A DNA stretch of 64,000 nucleotides from Bryocella elongata. Its GTDB lineage: Bacteria; Acidobacteriota; Terriglobia; Terriglobales; Acidobacteriaceae. The notes below the pieces were generated by a model. The model was given only the letters and a program-made list of their open reading frames with translations. It was not told where the DNA came from and ran no database searches. Shown one piece after another: positions 1,397 to 51,259 of the stretch. The position numbers and the translations under genes are program-made. Each line of letters opens with the position of its first letter. Within the stretch, counting starts at the first letter, position 1. The stretch covers positions 186,001 to 250,000 of the forward strand of contig NZ_FNVA01000002.1 of NCBI RefSeq assembly GCF_900108185.1, read 5' to 3'.

Positions 1397-2692
1397 ATGG
1401 AGCGTTTCCCAGTGTCTGCCTTTGCTGAAAACCCCGGGCCCGATCAATCGTCGCGCAATGGCACCCCTTCCGGGTTGGACGGCCCGGCGGGAAAGCCGCC
1501 TGCAAGTGCTTTAAGCCAACCGAATCAGTCTATTCAATCTGTGGACGACGGTGGTCTTGGCGAACGATATTCCCGTCAGATGCTCTTCCCGGGCATCGGC
1601 CTCAAGGGGCAGCAAGCTCTTGGACTGCGCCATGTCGCGATTGTGGGCGTGGGCGCGACCGGGGCGGTTACCGCCACGCTCCTCGCCCGCGCTGGCGTCG
1701 GGCTTCTGACCCTCATCGACCGCGACTTCGTCGAGCCCTCCAATTTGCAGCGACAGATCCTCTACGACGAGGAAGACGCCCGCAACGCTCTGCCCAAGGC
1801 CGAGGCCGCAAAGCAGCACCTCCGCCGCGTCAACTCCAGTGTCATGGTCGAAGCTCATGTCGCCGATTTGACCCCGGCCAACGTCGAAGCCCTGCTGGGG
1901 CCTGTGGACCTCGTGCTCGACTGCACCGACAACTACGAGACCCGCTACCTCATCAACGACCTCTGCGTTCGAGACGGCAAGGCGTGGATCTATGCCGCCG
2001 CCGTCGGAGCCTACGCCGCAGGAATGAATGTGCTGCCACAGGGCCCAGGGCCCAGGGTCCAGGGTCCAGAAGACGCTCCGCGGAGGATGGATTCGCAGTC
2101 TGGCCCCCGGGCCCTGAACCGTGATCCCTCGCCGTGGAAGCCAGAGGCTTCCACGGCCTGCCTGGCCTGCCTCTTTCCCGAACCGCCCACCGGGCCGGTC
2201 GAGACCTGCGACACCGCCGGAATCCTCTCACCGGCGGTCAACCTCGCGGCGTCCATCCAGGTCGCAGAGGGTCTCAAGTTCCTCAGCGGACAGCCTGAGC
2301 TGATGCGCCGCACCCTCGTAGGCTATGAGCTCTGGACCAACGCTCCTGACGGCCGTCAGGCCCGCTCAGAGCTCTCCACCTCCGCCCCGCGAACCGGCTG
2401 CGAGGTCTGCGGGCAACGCATCTTCCGGCACCTCGCCGGTGAGGGCCGCCCGACCATCACCCTCTGCGGCCGCAATTCCGTGCAGATTCACGAGCACCAG
2501 CGTCCGGTCGATCTCCACGCCCTCGCCAGGAAGCTCGAGTCCTCGGGCCGGGTCCGCACCAACGGCCACCTGCTCCGGTTCGATCGCCCTCCCCACTCGC
2601 TTACCGTCTTCCCGGACGGGCGCGCGCTGGTCCAGGGAACCACCGACATCGGCTTGGCGCGTTCGTTATATGCGCGATTTGTGGGCGCTTGA
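1397..2692 (+). CDS. ThiF/MoeB/HesA-family adenylyltransferase (E1-like)
   Basis: The product is 431 aa. After a poorly conserved N-terminus of about 55 residues comes the E1 core: ERYSRQMLFPGIG, then the nucleotide-binding loop GVGATGAV, then LIDRDFVEPSNLQRQ and DCTDNYETRYLIND. Two CxxC pairs (CLAC and CEVC) would hold the structural zinc. Members adenylate the C-terminal glycine of ThiS/MoaD-type sulfur carriers for thiamin, molybdopterin or thiouridine synthesis. The carrier here is not adjacent, so the pathway is unknown. The C-terminal part (LCGRNSVQI, FPDGRALVQGT) is typical of the family. Residues 214-245 are encoded by a palindromic repeat (separate entry) and are absent from the normal fold. 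The ATG at 1397 is the first reasonable start, but no strong Shine-Dalgarno is visible. Confidence 0.85.
   Translation: MERFPVSAFAENPGPDQSSRNGTPSGLDGPAGKPPASALSQPNQSIQSVDDGGLGERYSRQMLFPGIGLKGQQALGLRHVAIVGVGATGAVTATLLARAGVGLLTLIDRDFVEPSNLQRQILYDEEDARNALPKAEAAKQHLRRVNSSVMVEAHVADLTPANVEALLGPVDLVLDCTDNYETRYLINDLCVRDGKAWIYAAAVGAYAAGMNVLPQGPGPRVQGPEDAPRRMDSQSGPRALNRDPSPWKPEASTACLACLFPEPPTGPVETCDTAGILSPAVNLAASIQVAEGLKFLSGQPELMRRTLVGYELWTNAPDGRQARSELSTSAPRTGCEVCGQRIFRHLAGEGRPTITLCGRNSVQIHEHQRPVDLHALARKLESSGRVRTNGHLLRFDRPPHSLTVFPDGRALVQGTTDIGLARSLYARFVGA
2037..2131 (+). repeat. GGGTCCAGGG-type palindromic element inside the ThiF-like gene
   Basis: The left arm is made of reiterated CAGGGCCCAGGG/CAGGGTCCAGGG words. 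The right arm, GGCCCCCGGGCCCTGAACC through GATCCCTCG, is its imperfect reverse complement. A central GACGCTCCGCGGAGGATG segment separates them. The insert is in frame and adds about 32 Gly/Pro/Arg-rich residues between the MNVLPQ strand and the first zinc CxxC of the enzyme. Confidence 0.85.
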
Positions 2693-2823
2693 AGGGCCGG
2701 ACAACCCCAACCGGCTCCTACGCTTCCAACCCCACTGAAACCATTTGGAGATCCAGTGCGTTAGCCTCAGGACAGGCGCTTTGCCGGTTCGAGCCAAATC
2801 TGGACTCCCACGGACCAAAGCAG

Positions 2824-3492
2824 ATGGCAGCTCAAGGCACAATCACGATGCAGACAAAACCGACCCCCGGGTTGTTTAAGCGCAACCCACCGATCGCCGG
2901 AGAGGCCGAAGCCATTGAGCGCGCGAAAGCGGGCGATGCGGACTCATTCTCGAAGCTCTACGCCCTGCACAAGCGGCGCGTCTACACGCTCTGCCTGCGC
3001 ATGCTCGGCAACGTCTCCGAAGCCGAAGACATGACGCAGGAGGCATTCCTCCACCTCTACCGTAAGCTGGGCAGCTTCCGGGGCGAAAGCGCTTTCTCCA
3101 CCTGGCTGCACCGGCTGACGGTGAACCTCGTCCTGATGCACCTCCGCAAGAAGGGCCTCCAGCTTGTTTCGCTCGAGGAGACCATCAATCCGAGTGAAGA
3201 TGACGCTCCGAAGCGCGACTTTGGTGCCCGCGACCCCCAGCTTTCGGGCTCCGTGGACCGCGTCACCCTCGAGCGTGCCGTCGCTGCTCTGCCTCCGGGC
3301 TATCGCATGGTGTTTGTGCTGCACGATGTCGAAGGTTTCGAGCACAATGAGATTGCCGCTATGCTCGAATGCTCGACAGGAAACTCCAAGTCCCAGCTCC
3401 ACAAGGCGCGTCTTAAGCTGCGCGAACTGCTGCGTCAGCCCGAACAGCTTCGCCCCACTCCCGCTGAGGGTGCGAAGGAGGTCACGCAGTGA
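2824..3492 (+). CDS. ECF-type RNA polymerase sigma factor
   Basis: The product is 222 aa. Region 2 is seen as AGDADSFSKLYALHKRRVYTL followed by EAEDMTQEAFLHLYRKL and FSTWLHRLTVNLVLMHLRKK. Region 4 is seen as LPPGYRMVFVLHDVEGFEHNEIAAMLECSTGNSKSQLHKARLKLRELL, a helix-turn-helix that would read the -35 element. ECF factors direct core polymerase to stress or envelope regulons and are usually held by a cognate anti-sigma factor. The next gene overlaps its stop codon by 4 nt and is the candidate partner. The start could be the ATG at 2824 or at 2848; the upstream residues carry no domain. Confidence 0.88.
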   Translation: MAAQGTITMQTKPTPGLFKRNPPIAGEAEAIERAKAGDADSFSKLYALHKRRVYTLCLRMLGNVSEAEDMTQEAFLHLYRKLGSFRGESAFSTWLHRLTVNLVLMHLRKKGLQLVSLEETINPSEDDAPKRDFGARDPQLSGSVDRVTLERAVAALPPGYRMVFVLHDVEGFEHNEIAAMLECSTGNSKSQLHKARLKLRELLRQPEQLRPTPAEGAKEVTQ

Positions 3493-21381: not shown

Positions 21382-21455
21382 CCCGTTGTACGTTTCAGGT
21401 TCTACGTTCTACGCGCAAGCATGGACGTACAACGTACAACGCACAACGTAGAACA
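21382..21455 (+). repeat. GTTGTACGTT-type palindromic element in the infA-rpmJ spacer
   Basis: The left arm (GTTGTACGTTTCAGG, then GTTCTACGTTCTACG) pairs with the right arm (CGTACAACGTACAACG, then CACAACGTAGAAC) at 22 of 29 positions. The arms are themselves tandem variants of a word of about 8-10 nt. Confidence 0.8.
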
Positions 21456-21465
21456 GAGGATTCTC

Positions 21466-21579
21466 ATGAAGGTCCGTGCATCCGTAAAGGCCATCTGCGA
21501 CAAGTGCAAGGTCATCCATCGCAAGGGTGTCGTTCGCGTCATCTGCGAGAACGCCAAGCACAAGCAGCGCCAGGGCTAA
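21466..21579 (+). CDS. rpmJ: Large-subunit ribosomal protein L36 (bL36)
   Basis: The product is 37 aa and too short for most ORF callers. It begins [19 protein letters not shown] and continues [18 protein letters not shown]. The Cys-x2-Cys, Cys and His zinc ligands mark the zinc-binding (C+) form. ATG 21466 follows AGAGGATTCTC. It is the second gene of the operon and lies between two palindromic elements. Confidence 0.96.
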
Positions 21580-21583
21580 GGAA

Positions 21584-21660
21584 CAAGGGTCCAGGCCTCA
21601 GGTTTCAGGGTCCAGAAAGCAGCGCTTTCTAATCCCTGGGCCCTAAGCCCTGATCCCTCG
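21584..21660 (+). repeat. GGGTCCAGGG-type palindromic element in the rpmJ-rpsM spacer
   Basis: The left arm, CAAGGGTCCAGGCCTCAGG then TTTCAGGGTCCAGAAAGC (21584-21620), is an imperfect 37-nt inverted copy of 21624-21660 (GCTTTCTAATCCCTGGGCCC then TAAGCCCTGATCCCTCG). The loop is only a few nucleotides. Confidence 0.88.
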
Positions 21661-21811
21661 CATTACCGGCCCCACCGGGCGAGTTCGCCGATGTCAAGGC
21701 GTGCGTTGAACCCGGAGGAGGCAGCAGTCAGAAGTCAAAGCTTTCTGCCAGCCGGAAACAAATCACCCCGCTCCTCTGCCATGCAGAATGAGCCCAGACG
21801 AAAGGCACACC

Positions 21812-22192
21812 ATGGCCCGTATCGCCGGCGTCGACCTGCCACCCAACAAGCAGGCTCGTATCGCCCTCACGTACATCTACGGCATCGGTAGCCCGCGCGC
21901 TCTCAAGATCCTTGAGAAGGCCGGCATCGATCCGCTCGCCAAGATGGCAACCCTCGACGAGGACCAGCTCAACAAGATCCGTTCCGTCATCGAGCAGGAA
22001 GGTCAGATCGAAGGCGATCTCCGCAAGGAAATCAGCCTGAACATCAAGCGCCTCGTCGAAATTCAGTCGTACCGTGGTCTTCGCCACCGCCGCAGCCTCC
22101 CGGTCCGCGGCCAGCGCACCCACACCAACGCTCGTACCCGCAAGGGCCCCCGTAAGGGCACCGTTGCCGGTAAGAAGAAAGTGACGAAGTAG
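21812..22192 (+). CDS. rpsM: Small-subunit ribosomal protein S13 (uS13)
   Basis: The product is 126 aa, the usual length. It starts [20 protein letters not shown] and contains [17 protein letters not shown] and [20 protein letters not shown], then a basic tail [14 protein letters not shown]. It sits in the 30S head and contacts tRNA and L5. The ATG at 21812 follows a weak purine-rich stretch (ACGAAAGGCACACC). It ends 3 nt before rpsK. Confidence 0.97.
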
Positions 22193-22195
22193 CCC

Positions 22196-22624
22196 ATGGC
22201 GACCAAACAGCAGCAGCAGAAGTCCAGCGGAGCCAAGGCGGGTAAGGGCAAGAAGTTCAAGAAGCGCGAACGCAAAAACGTTCCATTTGGACTCGTCTTC
22301 ATCCAGGCTTCGTTCAACAACACCATCGTCACCATCACCGACCAGCAGGGCAACACGCTGTCGTGGAAGAGCTCAGGTTCGCTCGGCTTCCGCGGTTCGC
22401 GTAAGGGCACCCCGTTCGCGGCGCAGCAGGCAGCGGTCAACGCCGCCAACTCTGCTCGCGAGCACGGTCTCCGCTCGGTCGATGTCCGTGTGGCAGGCCC
22501 CGGTTCGGGCCGTGAGAGCGCCATCCGCGCCCTCGCCGCCGCCGGTATCGAGGTCCGCTCCATCCGTGACGTCACGCCCATGCCGCACAACGGCTGCCGT
22601 CCGCCGAAGCGCCGCCGCGTGTAA
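22196..22624 (+). CDS. rpsK: Small-subunit ribosomal protein S11 (uS11)
   Basis: The product is 142 aa with a Gln/Lys-rich N-terminal extension ([20 protein letters not shown]). The core follows: [60 protein letters not shown] and the C-terminus [11 protein letters not shown]. It forms part of the 30S platform around the mRNA exit channel. A degenerate duplicate of its last 21 nt lies at 22717-22742, beyond a palindromic element. Confidence 0.97.
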
Positions 22625-22625
22625 C

Positions 22626-22703
22626 TTCAGGGGCCAGCGTTCAGGGCCCAGGGGGCAGAAGGCAAGAGCTTTCTGCCCCCTGAGCCCTGGACCCTGAACC
22701 CTT
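22626..22703 (+). repeat. GGGCCCAGGG-type palindromic element in the rpsK-rpsD spacer
   Basis: The left arm (CAGCGTTCAGGGCCCAGG then GGGCAGAAGGCA) and right arm (TTCTGCCCCCTGAGCCCTGG then ACCCTGAACCC) form a long hairpin around AAGAGC. It begins 2 nt after the rpsK stop. Confidence 0.88.
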
Positions 22704-22716
22704 TCACCACCGGATC

Positions 22717-22742
22717 CCGAAGAAGCGCCCGCCGCGTGTAAA
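22717..22742 (+). repeat. Degenerate duplicate of the rpsK 3' end
   Basis: CCGAAGAAGCGC then CCGCCGCGTGTAA repeats the rpsK terminus at 22604-22624 (CCGAAGCGC then CGCCGCGTGTAA), with four extra bases. The two copies flank the palindromic element, as a target duplication would. Confidence 0.7.
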
Positions 22743-22775
22743 CGGATCGACACCTGATTTAGGAGAAAGAATCAA

Positions 22776-23408
22776 ATGGCACGTTATACAGGACCCGTCT
22801 GCCGCCTTTGCCGCCGCGACGGTCAGAAGCTGTTCCTCAAGGGCGCAAAGTGCTTCACCGACAAGTGCGCCGTCGAAAAGCGCAACTTCCCCCCGGGACA
22901 GCACGGTCAGTCCAAGAAGATCAAGAAGGTTGTCGGCTACGGCCTGCAGCTGCGTGAGAAGCAGAAGGCCAAGCGCATCTACTTCACTCTCGAAGGCCAG
23001 TTCCGCGCCTACTACGAGAACGCTGCCCGCAAGACCGGCGTCACCGGCGACCTGCTCCTGCAGCAACTCGAGACCCGCCTCGACAACGTCTGCTACCGCC
23101 TCGGCTTCGCGATGAGCCGCCGCCAGTCGCGCCAGGTTGTTCGTCACGGACACATCCAGGTCAACGGTCGCAAGGTCAACATCCCGAGCTTCCAGTGCAA
23201 GGTTGGCGATGTCATCGCTATCCGCGAAGGTTCGCGCTCCATGGTCATCCTCGAGGAGTCGAAGAACTTCATCGGCGGCCAGAACCGCGTCACCTGGATC
23301 GATGCTCAGCCTGAGAACTTCAGCGGCAAGATCGTCTCGATGCCGAAGCGCGAAGAGATTCAGCTGCCGGTCAACGAGCAGCAGATCGTCGAACTTTACT
23401 CGAAGTAA
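22776..23408 (+). CDS. rpsD: Small-subunit ribosomal protein S4 (uS4)
   Basis: The product is 210 aa. It begins MARYTGPVCRLCRRDGQKL and has CFTDKCAVEKRNFPPGQHG, so the four-cysteine zinc-binding version (CxxC...C...C) is present. The S4 RNA-binding domain follows (LETRLDNVCYRLGFAMSRRQ, SRQVVRHGHIQVNGRKVNIP). It is a primary 16S rRNA-binding assembly protein and often the autogenous regulator of the alpha operon. TTAGGAGAAAGAATCAA precedes the ATG. Confidence 0.97.
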   Translation: MARYTGPVCRLCRRDGQKLFLKGAKCFTDKCAVEKRNFPPGQHGQSKKIKKVVGYGLQLREKQKAKRIYFTLEGQFRAYYENAARKTGVTGDLLLQQLETRLDNVCYRLGFAMSRRQSRQVVRHGHIQVNGRKVNIPSFQCKVGDVIAIREGSRSMVILEESKNFIGGQNRVTWIDAQPENFSGKIVSMPKREEIQLPVNEQQIVELYSK

Positions 23409-23409
23409 G

Positions 23410-23556
23410 TAACTAGCTGCTAGCCGCTGGCCTCTAACTCCCGTCTCACCCATGCCCGCACGATCGGCAGAGGGTCTTCGCAGGAGATAGGGGCCGGTGG
23501 CGATGCAAGCGGCCCAGCCTTTAGCTAGGAGCTACAAGCTAACAGCTAGAAGCTGC
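23410..23556 (+). repeat. TAGCTGCTAGC-type long-loop palindrome in the rpsD-rpoA spacer
   Basis: The left part (AACTAGCTGCTAGCCGCTGG, 23410-23440) and right part (TTAGCTAGGAGCTACAAGC then TAACAGCTAGAAGCTG, 23521-23556) are imperfect inverted copies built from a CTAGC/AGCTA word. They are separated by about 80 nt of unrelated sequence. Confidence 0.7.
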
Positions 23557-23623
23557 CTCACCGTACCAACCCTGAACTGACGCAGAGTGCTTCGCGTCGG
23601 CAGGAGAAAGGAAATACCGACCC

Positions 23624-24712
<1,089 letters not shown>

Positions 24713-24714
24713 GT

Positions 24715-24739
24715 ACAGGGATTAGGGAACAGGGATTAG
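24715..24739 (+). repeat. Half element after rpoA: direct repeat ACAGGGATTAG
   Basis: Two identical 11-mers (24715-24725 and 24729-24739) are separated by GGA and start 3 nt after the rpoA stop. They resemble one arm of the palindromic elements, with no complementary arm nearby. Confidence 0.75.
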
Positions 24740-24747
24740 ACAACATA

Positions 24748-24773
24748 GCGGGGCAGCAAGCATTGTGCCCCGC
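24748..24773 (+). terminator. Hairpin between rpoA and the four-helix gene
   Basis: GCGGGGCA pairs perfectly with TGCCCCGC across a 10-nt loop. The following GCCATTTCC is only weakly T-rich, so it may be an attenuating hairpin rather than a full terminator. Confidence 0.5.
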
Positions 24774-24802
24774 GCCATTTCCTCGCAGAGTGGTGAACAG
24801 GA

Positions 24803-25149
24803 ATGGTCACATCCTATAAAGATCTGAAGGTCTGGCAGCGCGGTATAGAGCTTTCGCTTGCTATCTACAAGCTGACAGCCAGTTTTCCTTCGGACGAACG
24901 GTTCGGTCTCATCAGCCAGTTTCAACGCGCTGTGGTCTCCGTTCCGAGCAACATCGCAGAAGGCTACGGCCGGGGCACACGGAAGGACTATAAACAGTTC
25001 CTCTCGATTGCCCGTGGTTCAACATTGGAAGTTCAGACGCAGCTACTCATCGCACGCGAATTAGGCTACGGGAACCCGGCGCTGTTTCAACGGGCTGAAT
25101 CCCTGAAGAGGAAAGTAAAATGCTCTACTCCCTCATTCGCAAGCTCTGA
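24803..25149 (+). pseudogene. Four-helix-bundle (23S rRNA intervening-sequence-type) protein, frameshifted near the 3' end
   Basis: The N-terminal ~100 residues are typical of the S23/four-helix-bundle family: YKDLKVWQRGIELSLAIYKL, FPSDERFGLISQFQRAVVSV, PSNIAEGYGRGTRKDYKQFL and STLEVQTQLLIARELGY. In the original frame the protein then runs into repeat sequence and ends at 25249. One missing A in the A-run at 25117-25120 would restore KMLYSLIRKL and a TGA at 25147-25149, the normal family C-terminus. I therefore give the intact reading to 25149. The family's role is unknown; genes occur inside 23S rRNA intervening sequences and elsewhere. Its place between rpoA and rplQ is unusual. Confidence 0.75.
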
Positions 25150-25152
25150 GCG

Positions 25153-25192
25153 GCTTTCTGGACCCTGGGCCCTGACCCCTGGACCCTCGCAC
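25153..25192 (+). repeat. Single repeat arm before rplQ
   Basis: CTTTCTGGACCCTGGGCCC then TGACCCCTGGACCCTCGC matches right arms elsewhere. It starts 4 nt after the expected stop of the four-helix gene and extends that gene's shifted frame. Confidence 0.8.
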
Positions 25193-25235
25193 AATTTCCG
25201 GTCAAGTGCAGAAGCACGGCCGAAGGAGACTCTCG

Positions 25236-25706
25236 ATGCGTCATCGTAAAGGCGGCTTTAAGCTCGGCCGCAACACCTCACACCGTCGCGCACTTCTGCG
25301 CAATCTCGTCACCAGCATCATCCTTCACGATCGCGTCGAGACGACGCTGACCAAGGCCAAGGCCTCGCGTCCCATCGTCGAGAAGATGATCACCCTCGGC
25401 AAGAACGGCAGCGTTCACGCCCGCCGCCAGGCTCTCGCGTACCTCATGACGCCGGAGTCGGTCGATCGCCTCTTCAAGACCGTGGCTCCCCGTTACGCGA
25501 CCCGCAACGGTGGCTACTCGCGCATCATCAAGGCCGGCCCCCGCAAGGGTGACTCCGCCGAGGTCGCTTTCATCGAGCTTCTCGACGCCGAGGCCGAGCT
25601 CGATGCCAAGGCAGCCAAGCGCGAGGAAGCTCGCAACCGCCGCCGCGAAGAGCTCCAGAAGCAGCTCGAAGCCAGCCAGGCTGGCGACGAAGGCGCTCAG
25701 TCCTAA
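25236..25706 (+). CDS. rplQ: Large-subunit ribosomal protein L17 (bL17)
   Basis: The product is 156 aa, longer than the roughly 120-aa minimal form because of a charged helical C-terminal extension (DAKAAKREEARNRRREELQK). The core is MRHRKGGFKLGRNTSHRRAL, LRNLVTSIILHDRVETTLTK and KAKASRPIVEKMITLGK. It binds near the polypeptide exit of the 50S subunit. GAAGGAG lies 8 nt before the ATG at 25236; the frame extends 10 codons upstream through non-conserved sequence. Confidence 0.97.
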   Translation: MRHRKGGFKLGRNTSHRRALLRNLVTSIILHDRVETTLTKAKASRPIVEKMITLGKNGSVHARRQALAYLMTPESVDRLFKTVAPRYATRNGGYSRIIKAGPRKGDSAEVAFIELLDAEAELDAKAAKREEARNRRREELQKQLEASQAGDEGAQS

Positions 25707-25742
25707 GACTCAGGACTCGAAGCTCACAACTCGAAACTCAAT
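25707..25742 (+). repeat. ACTCGAAGCTCA-type reiterated word after rplQ
   Basis: GACTCAGGACTCGAAGCTCA then CAACTCGAAACTCAATC is a tandem of about 9-nt variants beginning right after the rplQ stop. It looks like one arm of a word-based element. Confidence 0.6.
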
Positions 25743-25755
25743 CATTGATTTTCAA

Positions 25756-25793
25756 CACGAAGGGCGCGCCATCAGGCGCGCCCTTCGTGTTTC
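25756..25793 (+). terminator. Terminator of the ribosomal operon
   Basis: A perfect 15-bp stem (CACGAAGGGCGCGCC, loop ATCA, then its complement) is followed by TTTCC. Confidence 0.88.
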
Positions 25794-47654: not shown

Positions 47655-47754
47655 AAGCAGTGAGAAGTGGCAAGTGACAAGTACAAAGCAAAGGGCGCGA
47701 CTCCAGTCGCGCCCTTTGTCCTTACGTATCACTTGTCACTTACCACTGCTTCTA
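47653..47754. repeat. Stop-to-stop long palindrome between convergent genes
   Basis: The left arm (AGAAGCAGTGAGAAGTGGC, AAGTGACAAGTACAAAGC, AAAGGGCGCGACT) and the right arm (AGTCGCGCCCTTTGTCC, TTACGTATCACTTGTCAC, TTACCACTGCTTCT) are near-complete inverted copies of about 49 nt. Each end carries the TAGAAGCAGTG that provides the stop codon of one flanking gene. The inner AAAGGGCGCGACT stem would act as a terminator. Confidence 0.9.
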
Positions 47755-49594: not shown

Positions 49595-51259
49595 ATGTTC
49601 TTTATGCCGCGCAGCCTTACGACCCCCAGCCTCAAAGACTTCCAGAAGCTGGCCCGCACCCATTCGCTCGTTCCTGTCAGCCGCACAGTCGCGGCCGATC
49701 TCGAGACCCCCGTGTCGGCCTTCCTCAAGGTCGCCTCGGTCGAGCCCGAGGCCTTCCTGCTGGAGTCGGTCGAAGGCGGCGAGCATGTGGGCCGCTACAC
49801 CTTCATCGGCATCCGCCCCTACCGCACGCTCACGGCGCGGGGCGGCGAAGTCACACTCACCGAAGGCCGCCGCAAGAAGATCTACAAAGCCGACATCTTC
49901 ACCGAGCTCAAGCGCGCCCTCAGCGGCGAGACGCCTGCCCGCCTGCCCGGCCTGCCGCCCTTCACCGCCGGCGCCGTCGGCTTCTTCTCCTACGACGTCG
50001 TCCGCCTCATCGAGAAGCTGCCCACCCACGCCGTCGACGAGCTCCACGCACCCGACGCACATCTCATGTTCTTCGACGAGGTGCTGGCCTTCGACCACGT
50101 CCGCAAGCAGATTCACCTGATGGTGACCGCCGGCGCCCGCAAGCCGTTTGAGCTTCCGGGTGCCCCATCCGTACCGACAGGTTCATCGTCGGGACGGGTG
50201 GGTGCGAAAGACTACGCCTCCGCCAACCGCCGCCTCGATCGCCTGGAGAAGATGCTCAACGCGGCACTCCCCAAGCCGAAGCGCAAGCCCTCCGCGAAGC
50301 TCGGCGCGCTGAAGCTGACCGCGCGCACGAAGCCCGCGCAGTTCCTCAAGGCCGTCGAGAAGACCAAGAACTACATCACCGCCGGCGACATCTTCCAGTG
50401 CGTGCTCTCGCAGCGCTTCGACTGCACCCCTGGCGTCGACGCCTTCGACGTCTATCGTTCGCTCCGCATCGTGAACCCGAGCCCGTATCTGTACTTCCTG
50501 CGCTTCAATGTTCCGGGATCGGCTCGAGAACCGAATGCCAGCGCAAGGGTTCAGGGCTCAGGGTCCAGGGCGCAGAAGACGGTTCGTGGCAAGGCGCAGT
50601 CTGAACCCTTGGCCCTGAACCCTGGGCCCTTGCACATCGTTGGCTCCTCGCCCGAGATGCTCGTCCGCGTCTCTTCCAACGGCAAGATCGAGTACCGCCC
50701 CATCGCCGGCACGCGCCCGCGCGGTGCGGATGAGATGCTCGACCGAGAGATGGAGGCCGGGCTCCGCGCCGACGCCAAGGAGATCGCCGAGCACGTCATG
50801 CTGGTCGACCTCGGTCGCAACGACGTTGGCCGCGTCAGCGAGTACGGGTCGGTACGCGTGAAGGACCTGATGTTCGTCGAGCGCTACAGCCACGTCATGC
50901 ACCTGGTCTCCGCGCTCGAAGGCACGCTGCGCAAGGACCTCGCACCCATCGACGCCTTCAAGGCCTGCTTCCCCGCAGGCACGCTCTCCGGCGCACCCAA
51001 GATCCGCGCCATGGAGATCATCGACGAGCTCGAACCCGCCCGCCGCGGCGTCTACGGCGGAGCCATCTTCTACGCCGACTTCGCCGGAAACTTAGACAGC
51101 TGCATCGCCATCCGCACGCTCTTCATGGACGGCGAAGAAGGCCACATCCAGGCCGGCGCCGGCATCGTCGCCGACTCCGTGCCGCAGAAGGAACACGAAG
51201 AGTGCCGCAACAAGGCGGCGGCGGTAGTGAGAGCCATCGAACGCGCACGGGCGATGTAG
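49595..51259 (+). CDS. trpE: Anthranilate synthase component I
   Basis: The product is 554 aa. With TrpG it converts chorismate and glutamine to anthranilate, the first committed step to tryptophan. The N-terminal feedback region has ESVEGGEHVGRYTFIGIRP. The chorismate-binding domain has ITAGDIFQCVLSQRFD, HIVGSSPEMLVRVSS, IAGTRPRGADEMLDREM, LVDLGRNDVGRVSEYG, FPAGTLSGAPKIRAMEIIDE and GGAIFYADFAGNLDSCIAIR. Residues ~311-347 are an insert encoded by a palindromic repeat, in frame, just before HIVGSSPE. trpG is not adjacent. No good Shine-Dalgarno is visible; repeats abut the start, and ATG 49604 is an alternative. Confidence 0.95.
   Translation: MFFMPRSLTTPSLKDFQKLARTHSLVPVSRTVAADLETPVSAFLKVASVEPEAFLLESVEGGEHVGRYTFIGIRPYRTLTARGGEVTLTEGRRKKIYKADIFTELKRALSGETPARLPGLPPFTAGAVGFFSYDVVRLIEKLPTHAVDELHAPDAHLMFFDEVLAFDHVRKQIHLMVTAGARKPFELPGAPSVPTGSSSGRVGAKDYASANRRLDRLEKMLNAALPKPKRKPSAKLGALKLTARTKPAQFLKAVEKTKNYITAGDIFQCVLSQRFDCTPGVDAFDVYRSLRIVNPSPYLYFLRFNVPGSAREPNASARVQGSGSRAQKTVRGKAQSEPLALNPGPLHIVGSSPEMLVRVSSNGKIEYRPIAGTRPRGADEMLDREMEAGLRADAKEIAEHVMLVDLGRNDVGRVSEYGSVRVKDLMFVERYSHVMHLVSALEGTLRKDLAPIDAFKACFPAGTLSGAPKIRAMEIIDELEPARRGVYGGAIFYADFAGNLDSCIAIRTLFMDGEEGHIQAGAGIVADSVPQKEHEECRNKAAAVVRAIERARAM
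50541..50634 (+). repeat. GGGTTCAGGG-type palindromic element inside trpE
   Basis: The left arm (GCAAGGGTTCAGGGCTCAGG, GTCCAGGGCGCAGAAGAC) and right arm (GTCTGAACCCTTGGCCCTG, AACCCTGGGCCCTTGC) pair along about 36 nt. The element keeps the frame open in this position. Confidence 0.9.

Follow-up and report, generated by a model that had tools for sequence, protein, structure and literature searches.

A shared AG rhythm marks ribosomal spacers and frames S23 genes, and may define a mobile element class of many bacterial phyla

Introduction

What kind of element fills the spacers of a ribosomal operon with palindromes built from short repeated words, when the words differ from spacer to spacer? 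This question is raised by a stretch of Bryocella elongata DNA, hereafter the window, which spans 64,000 nucleotides (nt; C6:186001-250000 of the 5.67-Mb genome G000). A preliminary description of the window had reported a different palindrome or arm in each of seven spacers, and read these as a generative or slippage-based class, unlike a conventional family. We find that the spacers hold members of a class whose defining feature is a grammar. Its arms typically read (AG-N5)x4-AG over 30 nt, sometimes with a pitch of 8 nt, and often stand opposite an inverted arm whose locus-specific word is the same. In complete elements, the arms enclose a gene for an S23 protein (PF05635); the rest consist of a solo hairpin or one arm. 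S23 proteins, also named after the intervening sequences (IVS) of 23S rRNA, are widespread and to our knowledge have no known target or function.

Results

Heptad arrays in the ribosomal spacers

The operon in the window is ordered infA, rpmJ, rpsM, rpsK, rpsD, rpoA, a four-helix gene and rplQ, with rpmJ assigned by position. The four-helix gene (24803..25249; all features are given on the forward strand of the window) encodes an S23/23S rRNA-intervening-sequence protein (PF05635, profile match E 1.5e-35). Twelve tandem arrays lie across seven spacers, those after infA, rpmJ, rpsK, rpsD, rpoA, the S23 gene and rplQ, and all have a period of 7 nt. Periods 4-6 and 8-13 gave zero arrays in these spacers, and dinucleotide-preserving shuffles (n=1000) gave a mean of 0.08 arrays and a maximum of 2. 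The reiterated words are thus genuine in all seven spacers. The units of 10-12 nt first quoted for them are not, since the repeat unit is 7 nt everywhere. One array of the twelve is weak (21716-21737, score 9) and has no facing partner, and the rpsM-rpsK spacer has no array.

Nearly all arms in the window fit one grammar, (AG-N5)x4-AG over 30 nt with an opposite CT arm, and their words differ. Five spacers each have one or more arms of 30 nt in which AG (or CT) occurs exactly five times, 7 nt apart, making seven such arms. Two of them form the rpmJ-rpsM pair, with five AG on the left (21586..21615; array 21592-21615) and five CT on the right (21629..21658; array 21634-21658). The rpsK-rpsD spacer is built alike, with arms at 22629..22658 (five AG) and 22673..22702 (five CT), each detected as an array. 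Between infA and rpmJ, a left arm of ACGTTNT heptads (21384..21413) faces an inverted right arm (21425..21454, array score 17). Arm-to-arm RNA hairpins are predicted in all three spacers, with z scores of -4.9 after rpmJ, -7.7 after rpsK and -2.5 after infA.

The two arms after rpsD are also inverted words, degenerate AGCTNCT heptads on the left (23413..23435) and five CT over 30 nt on the right (23525..23554; array 23523-23554). Here, in the best fold (z -4.5), the right arm folds back on itself and the left arm pairs with the sequence that separates them. A single arm follows rpoA (24717..24739, an array of AGGGATT heptads with four AG) and a single arm follows the S23 core (25158..25187, a 30-nt array with five CT). 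The two face each other across the S23 gene. The spacer after rplQ has a lone arm of 30 nt with five CT (25709..25738; array 25707-25739), without a partner and without a fold (z +0.4). The picture of a palindrome or arm in each spacer therefore stands for the hairpins after infA, rpmJ and rpsK and the inverted arms after rpsD, and reduces to single arms in the other three. A common architecture with differing words is upheld. The common 7-nt pitch, the AG grammar, the count of five and the place of the S23 gene in the system go beyond what had been described.

Judged by eye, the S23 frame of the window extends past the stop of its relatives and through the downstream arm to the rplQ start, so that its C-terminus differs. 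Beyond the lone arm after rplQ lies a perfect 17-bp inverted repeat with a 4-nt loop (25754-25791), possibly a transcription terminator.

S23 genes are framed by matching arms

The genome has seven PF05635 genes. By eye, five of the seven are flanked by arms of a private word, one of them at pitch 8 and one including both direct and inverted arrays. For the remaining two, a hairpin is seen upstream but not downstream. At one S23 locus of this genome (L002), pitch-8 arrays (GGAACAGC) stand on both sides in many copies.

The same framing is found in many phyla. S23 loci were picked by protein, not by flank. A set of 109 loci, drawn from the best 80 of 584 confirmed stretches and 30 loci from among the matches listed, has period-7 arrays upstream in 86 and downstream in 70, compared with 9 of 201 control stretches taken farther away. 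A further set started from 30 loci and 40 added in list order among the matches listed. Removing 26 of these 70 for an already-used identical protein left 44 loci, from 26 genomes already in the first set. Arrays lie upstream of 32 and downstream of 29 of them (control, 1/87). With pitch 7 or 8 counted, the 182 loci with full flanks (6 of 188 were excluded for short ones) have arrays on both sides in 125 cases, on one side in 47 and on neither in 10. Control stretches for this set hold arrays in 18 of 293. At the same threshold, no locus has arrays of period 5, 10 or 11 on both flanks.

The two arms of a locus resemble each other more than they resemble arms elsewhere. The left/right match reached at least the 95th percentile of cross-locus pairs in 76 of 105 loci and at least the 99th in 56, after short flanks had excluded 4 of the 109. 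In the genus set, which comprises congeners and the genome itself, 21 of 35 loci reached at least the 95th percentile. The S23 frames between the arms are near-constant in length, at 109-132 amino acids from match start to stop (5th-95th percentile).

Arms keep AG and count to five

Phase alignment of one arm per locus (94 loci) gave two adjacent conserved columns, A (0.81) and G (0.87). The information in this AG grammar is 2.62, whereas none of 40 column-permuted sets exceeded 1.87. Neighbouring copies within arms agree best at G (0.93), A (0.87) and the column after G (0.85), and at 0.70-0.78 in the other four columns.

The number of AG per arm is also constrained. Among S23 arms at pitch 7 (223 of 257 countable), three AG occur in 32, four in 49, five in 85 and six in 16. 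At pitch 8 (42 of 49 countable) the corresponding counts are 9, 9, 13 and 1. The AG count peaks at five, and all six other column pairs in the same arms peak at four, so an arm typically starts and ends with AG. Five chains make up each entry of two solved relatives of S23 (2gsc and 2rld), and the 2gsc paper, as cited in a reference list, has a title that refers to five four-helix bundles. By analogy, these five chains may point to a ring that binds spaced motifs, a likeness that is suggestive only.

The same arrays lie across the genome

The class is not confined to the operon. Contig C6 (698,657 nt) has 94 period-7 arrays, 25 of them with an inverted partner at most 200 nt away. Inverted-partner pairs number 0-2 for each of the periods 4-6, 8-13, 15 and 18, and 12 for period 21, which is three times 7. 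In these 0.7 Mb, period-7 arrays and inverted pairs far outnumber those of the other periods. Words change between loci and drift along long arrays (for example C6:366334-366486). Within the window itself, arrays or hairpins of the same AG-heptad class lie outside the operon at 2039-2069, 47656-47747 and 50546-50575.

A sample of 1,577,212 bases of the genome holds 90 AG-type arrays, with AG chains of three in 17, four in 14, five in 39 and six in 8. The sample includes 6 of the 7 S23 genes, and merely 4 of the 90 arrays lie within 300 nt of one. The 86 arrays farther away have their mode at five under a stricter count made inside the array only (17, 21, 31 and 5 for three to six). Their distribution is uneven. 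Arrays are dense over the initial 0.5 Mb of C4 and past 360 kb in C6, and C4 0.56-1.54 Mb has 3 arrays in 13 sampled 20-kb stretches, with one array also at C4:873.7 kb. The strand of unpaired arrays in C6 is, by eye, independent of the strand of neighbouring genes.

One site, different words

We compared the window with 20 relatives, in which spacer coverage varies per genome; the starts of rpmJ spacers were left out of the comparison among congeners. The same ribosomal spacers carry other words, nothing, or an S23 element. Identical spacers, which would have pointed to ordinary leader structures, are therefore not what relatives have. Elements in the examined ribosomal spacers mostly begin directly after stop codons: in 23 of 30 array-bearing spacers (of four kinds only) the first array lies within 10 nt of the stop codon, where uniform placing predicts 7.3. 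Conserved leaders ahead of the next gene may confine arrays to this position. Across the genus, arrays occur in the operon stretch (4-20 kb) of 0 of 5 S23-free and 14 of 16 S23-bearing genomes (Spearman 0.62, uncorrected for kinship), a tendency to which G022 (see Discussion) runs counter.

Between close relatives the word at one site differs, while AG and the pitch persist. Genomes G002 and G023 are 91% identical over the aligned ribosomal stretch and have the infA spacer word in common, and their right arms after rpmJ have different words with the CT phase retained. Site comparisons covered three S23 loci (L345-L347) of 16. At L346, where the flanks of G002 and G023 are 97% identical, an S23 element between AGAGAGT arms stands in G023 and an AGGGATT hairpin without S23 in G002. 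The same site holds an AGAGATC hairpin in G010 and nothing in G016. At L345, the S23 element of G023 has AAGTGGT arms, G016 has nothing and G002 carries an unrelated insert. At L347, G010 has a palindrome without S23. A change of word at one site could reflect either repeated insertions or rewriting in place.

Two further observations come from these comparisons. The G002 insert at the site of a G023 S23 element (L364, about 2575-3340) resembles, by eye, a HigB/HigA-type pair. The spacers L032, L036, L038, L045 and L047 contain other palindromes, which are conserved in sequence (CCCACTCATCGC..., GCGCAGCGGAG...), recur in ribosomal spacers of relatives and look like repetitive extragenic palindromic (REP) sequences.

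Discussion

We give an even chance to the following reading: the arms belong to a grammar-defined, IVS-like element, they are read by an S23 pentamer with one AG per subunit, and the solo hairpins are its gene-less forms. The pentamer would bind a single-stranded AG arm, RNA or DNA, with a free linker of 5-6 nt between contacts. The TRAP ring, which reads spaced GAG/UAG targets, offers an analogy for such reading. The likeness lies in the proposed ring reading of spaced AG, one per subunit. No homology is claimed, and here there would be five subunits and a pitch of 7-8 nt. If only AG is read, the N5 letters would be left to drift. Replication slippage would make these letters uniform within an arm, and hairpin-templated copying would keep the two arms alike. 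Reading of the arms by the S23 ring may then spread or maintain the element, which would be a selfish IVS-like insertion tolerated between genes, its movement probably catalysed by a host function.

Several results weigh against this reading. At L347 the same S23 copy is present in G002 and G023, so turnover is not universal, and no target-site duplication was readable at the compared sites, where flanks are too diverged or spacers replaced. G005 and G012 have S23 yet no array in the operon stretch examined. Conversely, G022 (95% complete) has no S23 match, yet shows 21 overlapping matches of one word at 9 places, a word with zero matches in G041 (6 S23 genes) and G019 (5 S23 genes). A backwards-pattern control is uninformative for this search, since reversing the word yields the same cyclic repeat. 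In the 44-locus set the AG counts drop sharply beyond five without a peak there (13, 13, 13 and 3 for three to six). The order of heptads is only weakly matched between arms (of 54 pairs, 27 exceed the permuted mean and 18 fall short of it, P 0.012). An internal stop interrupts 5 of 55 genus S23 matches among the matches listed. In the infA arms of the window the pitch is still 7 nt, but AC mostly replaces AG. Finally, the pitch-8 label on the S23 tree needs 17 changes for 23 rows, compared with a shuffled mean of 21.8 and 0 of 500 shuffles as low. Such weak clustering led us to reject a pitch set by S23 clade, and with so many changes S23 would have to tolerate pitch 7 or 8.

The strongest alternative is that slippage and template-switch (quasipalindrome) copying build arrays wherever intergenic DNA permits, with S23 genes as passengers. 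The drift of words along long arrays such as C6:366334-366486, the replacement of whole words at one site and the G022 arrays without an S23 match all fit it. Slippage alone leaves the two-sided framing of 125 of 182 S23 loci, the A and G fixed across phyla and the mode at five unexplained. We think it unlikely as the whole account, with a real chance nonetheless.

A second alternative is a mobile element that moves as single-stranded DNA and inserts with a bias to one replication strand, as IS200/IS605 elements and REPs mobilised by RAYT transposases do. Consistent with such movement, 52 of 67 unpaired arrays in the genome are oriented with the local GC skew (P 6.5e-6), and elsewhere in G002 there are 12 matches, at 84-100% identity, to the 31-33-nt downstream arm of one S23 locus. 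The elements lack a conserved end sequence, however, mutational skew could equally orient G-rich arrays, and S23 is a four-helix bundle for which we know of no nuclease activity. This route appears improbable to us, if not remote.

Retention of the repeats because they form G-quadruplexes, an idea put forward for GGGNATC heptads (PMC4692102), is very improbable in general and may hold for G-rich words. AGGGNNN words do contain GGG tracts, and the accessible text of that paper reports a preference for four units and sites near stop codons. We rejected it as a general cause because only 37 of 261 S23 arms and 25 of 90 arrays of the genome have at least four GGG tracts. Ordinary leaders, attenuators or terminators, suggested by stable RNA hairpins in an operon that is known to be regulated, are excluded as the origin by the zero Rfam matches in the window, the variation of the same spacers between congeners and the occurrence of the class outside the operon, leaving co-opted effects possible.

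The elements also differ from known repeat systems. REP and REPIN palindromes, with their RAYT transposase, are many short palindromes with a gene-bearing partner, and REPs share a conserved sequence. The elements here share pitch and AG only, their words vary by locus and their inner gene is PF05635; RAYT genes in this genome were not searched for. A conventional REP or miniature inverted-repeat transposable element is rejected, since there is no shared sequence. The contrast with a conventional REP or insertion-sequence family drawn in the preliminary description thus holds, and its interpretation as a whole is partly supported.

Among the closest known systems is the IVS of 23S rRNA, known with an S23 open reading frame also in Leptospira. 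The Coxiella IVS has an S23-family open reading frame in a 28-bp inverted-repeat stem, is termed selfish in the accessible part of the report and is excised from rRNA by RNase III (PMC4990558). The window gene and most S23 genes have this arrangement of an S23-family frame within an inverted-repeat stem. Unlike the IVS, which sits in rRNA, the window copy lies between rpoA and rplQ in a protein-gene spacer. We found no insertion in a 23S rRNA gene, with no Rfam match in the window and no rRNA at 20 S23 loci chosen for weak arms. The arms here are AG heptads with locus-specific words, and a genome has several copies and many solo hairpins.

Heptads have precedents as well. The short tandemly repeated repetitive (STRR) sequences of cyanobacteria are intergenic heptamers, and tandem 7-nt units in intergenic DNA are what we find here. 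As far as its accessible text goes, PMC4679880 describes TAACTGA heptamers of cyanobacteria and Beggiatoaceae as intergenic, also in ribosomal operons, and as direct repeats of one word with one inverted case. On our own reading, these arrays have AG at a 7-nt pitch on the opposite strand. The GGGNATC repeats of Xanthomonas and Nostoc are 7-nt tandem units, and their convergent pairs number 70 in one Xanthomonas genome and 75 in another, according to the part of PMC4692102 available. They were read as G-quadruplexes of G-rich words, whereas here there are many words, an AG grammar and a link to S23. The available text of neither paper mentions S23. In the P6b stem of the Nostoc tRNA-Leu intron, the accessible account (PMC4476775) describes 7-nt repeats with their complements, and a fixed site at which one class of repeat has given way to another. 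That stem is limited to one intron, unlike the elements here.

Heptad repeats have thus been reported piecemeal, as single words or in single genera, and without a protein partner. A literature search, with subscription papers largely beyond its reach, found no paper tying S23 genes to heptad arms. An S23 relative, Avd, is essential for retrohoming in diversity-generating retroelements, according to the accessible text of PMC10053308.

The same rhythmic arms frame S23 genes in many bacterial groups, and the element family is widespread. The arms offer an explicit candidate target for S23, and the count of five equals the five chains of its solved relatives. The fullest form of the S23-ring reading, that of a mobile element class of many phyla set by the rhythm (AGN5)4AG and read by a five-fold S23 ring while each locus invents its word, we hold tentatively, at a little short of even. 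If it is true, every locus would make its own word because letters other than AG are free, and repeat finders would overlook these elements because grammar, not sequence, is common to them. S23 would then gain a target, and rRNA intervening sequences, STRR heptamers, G-rich heptads and intron heptad stems would be united.

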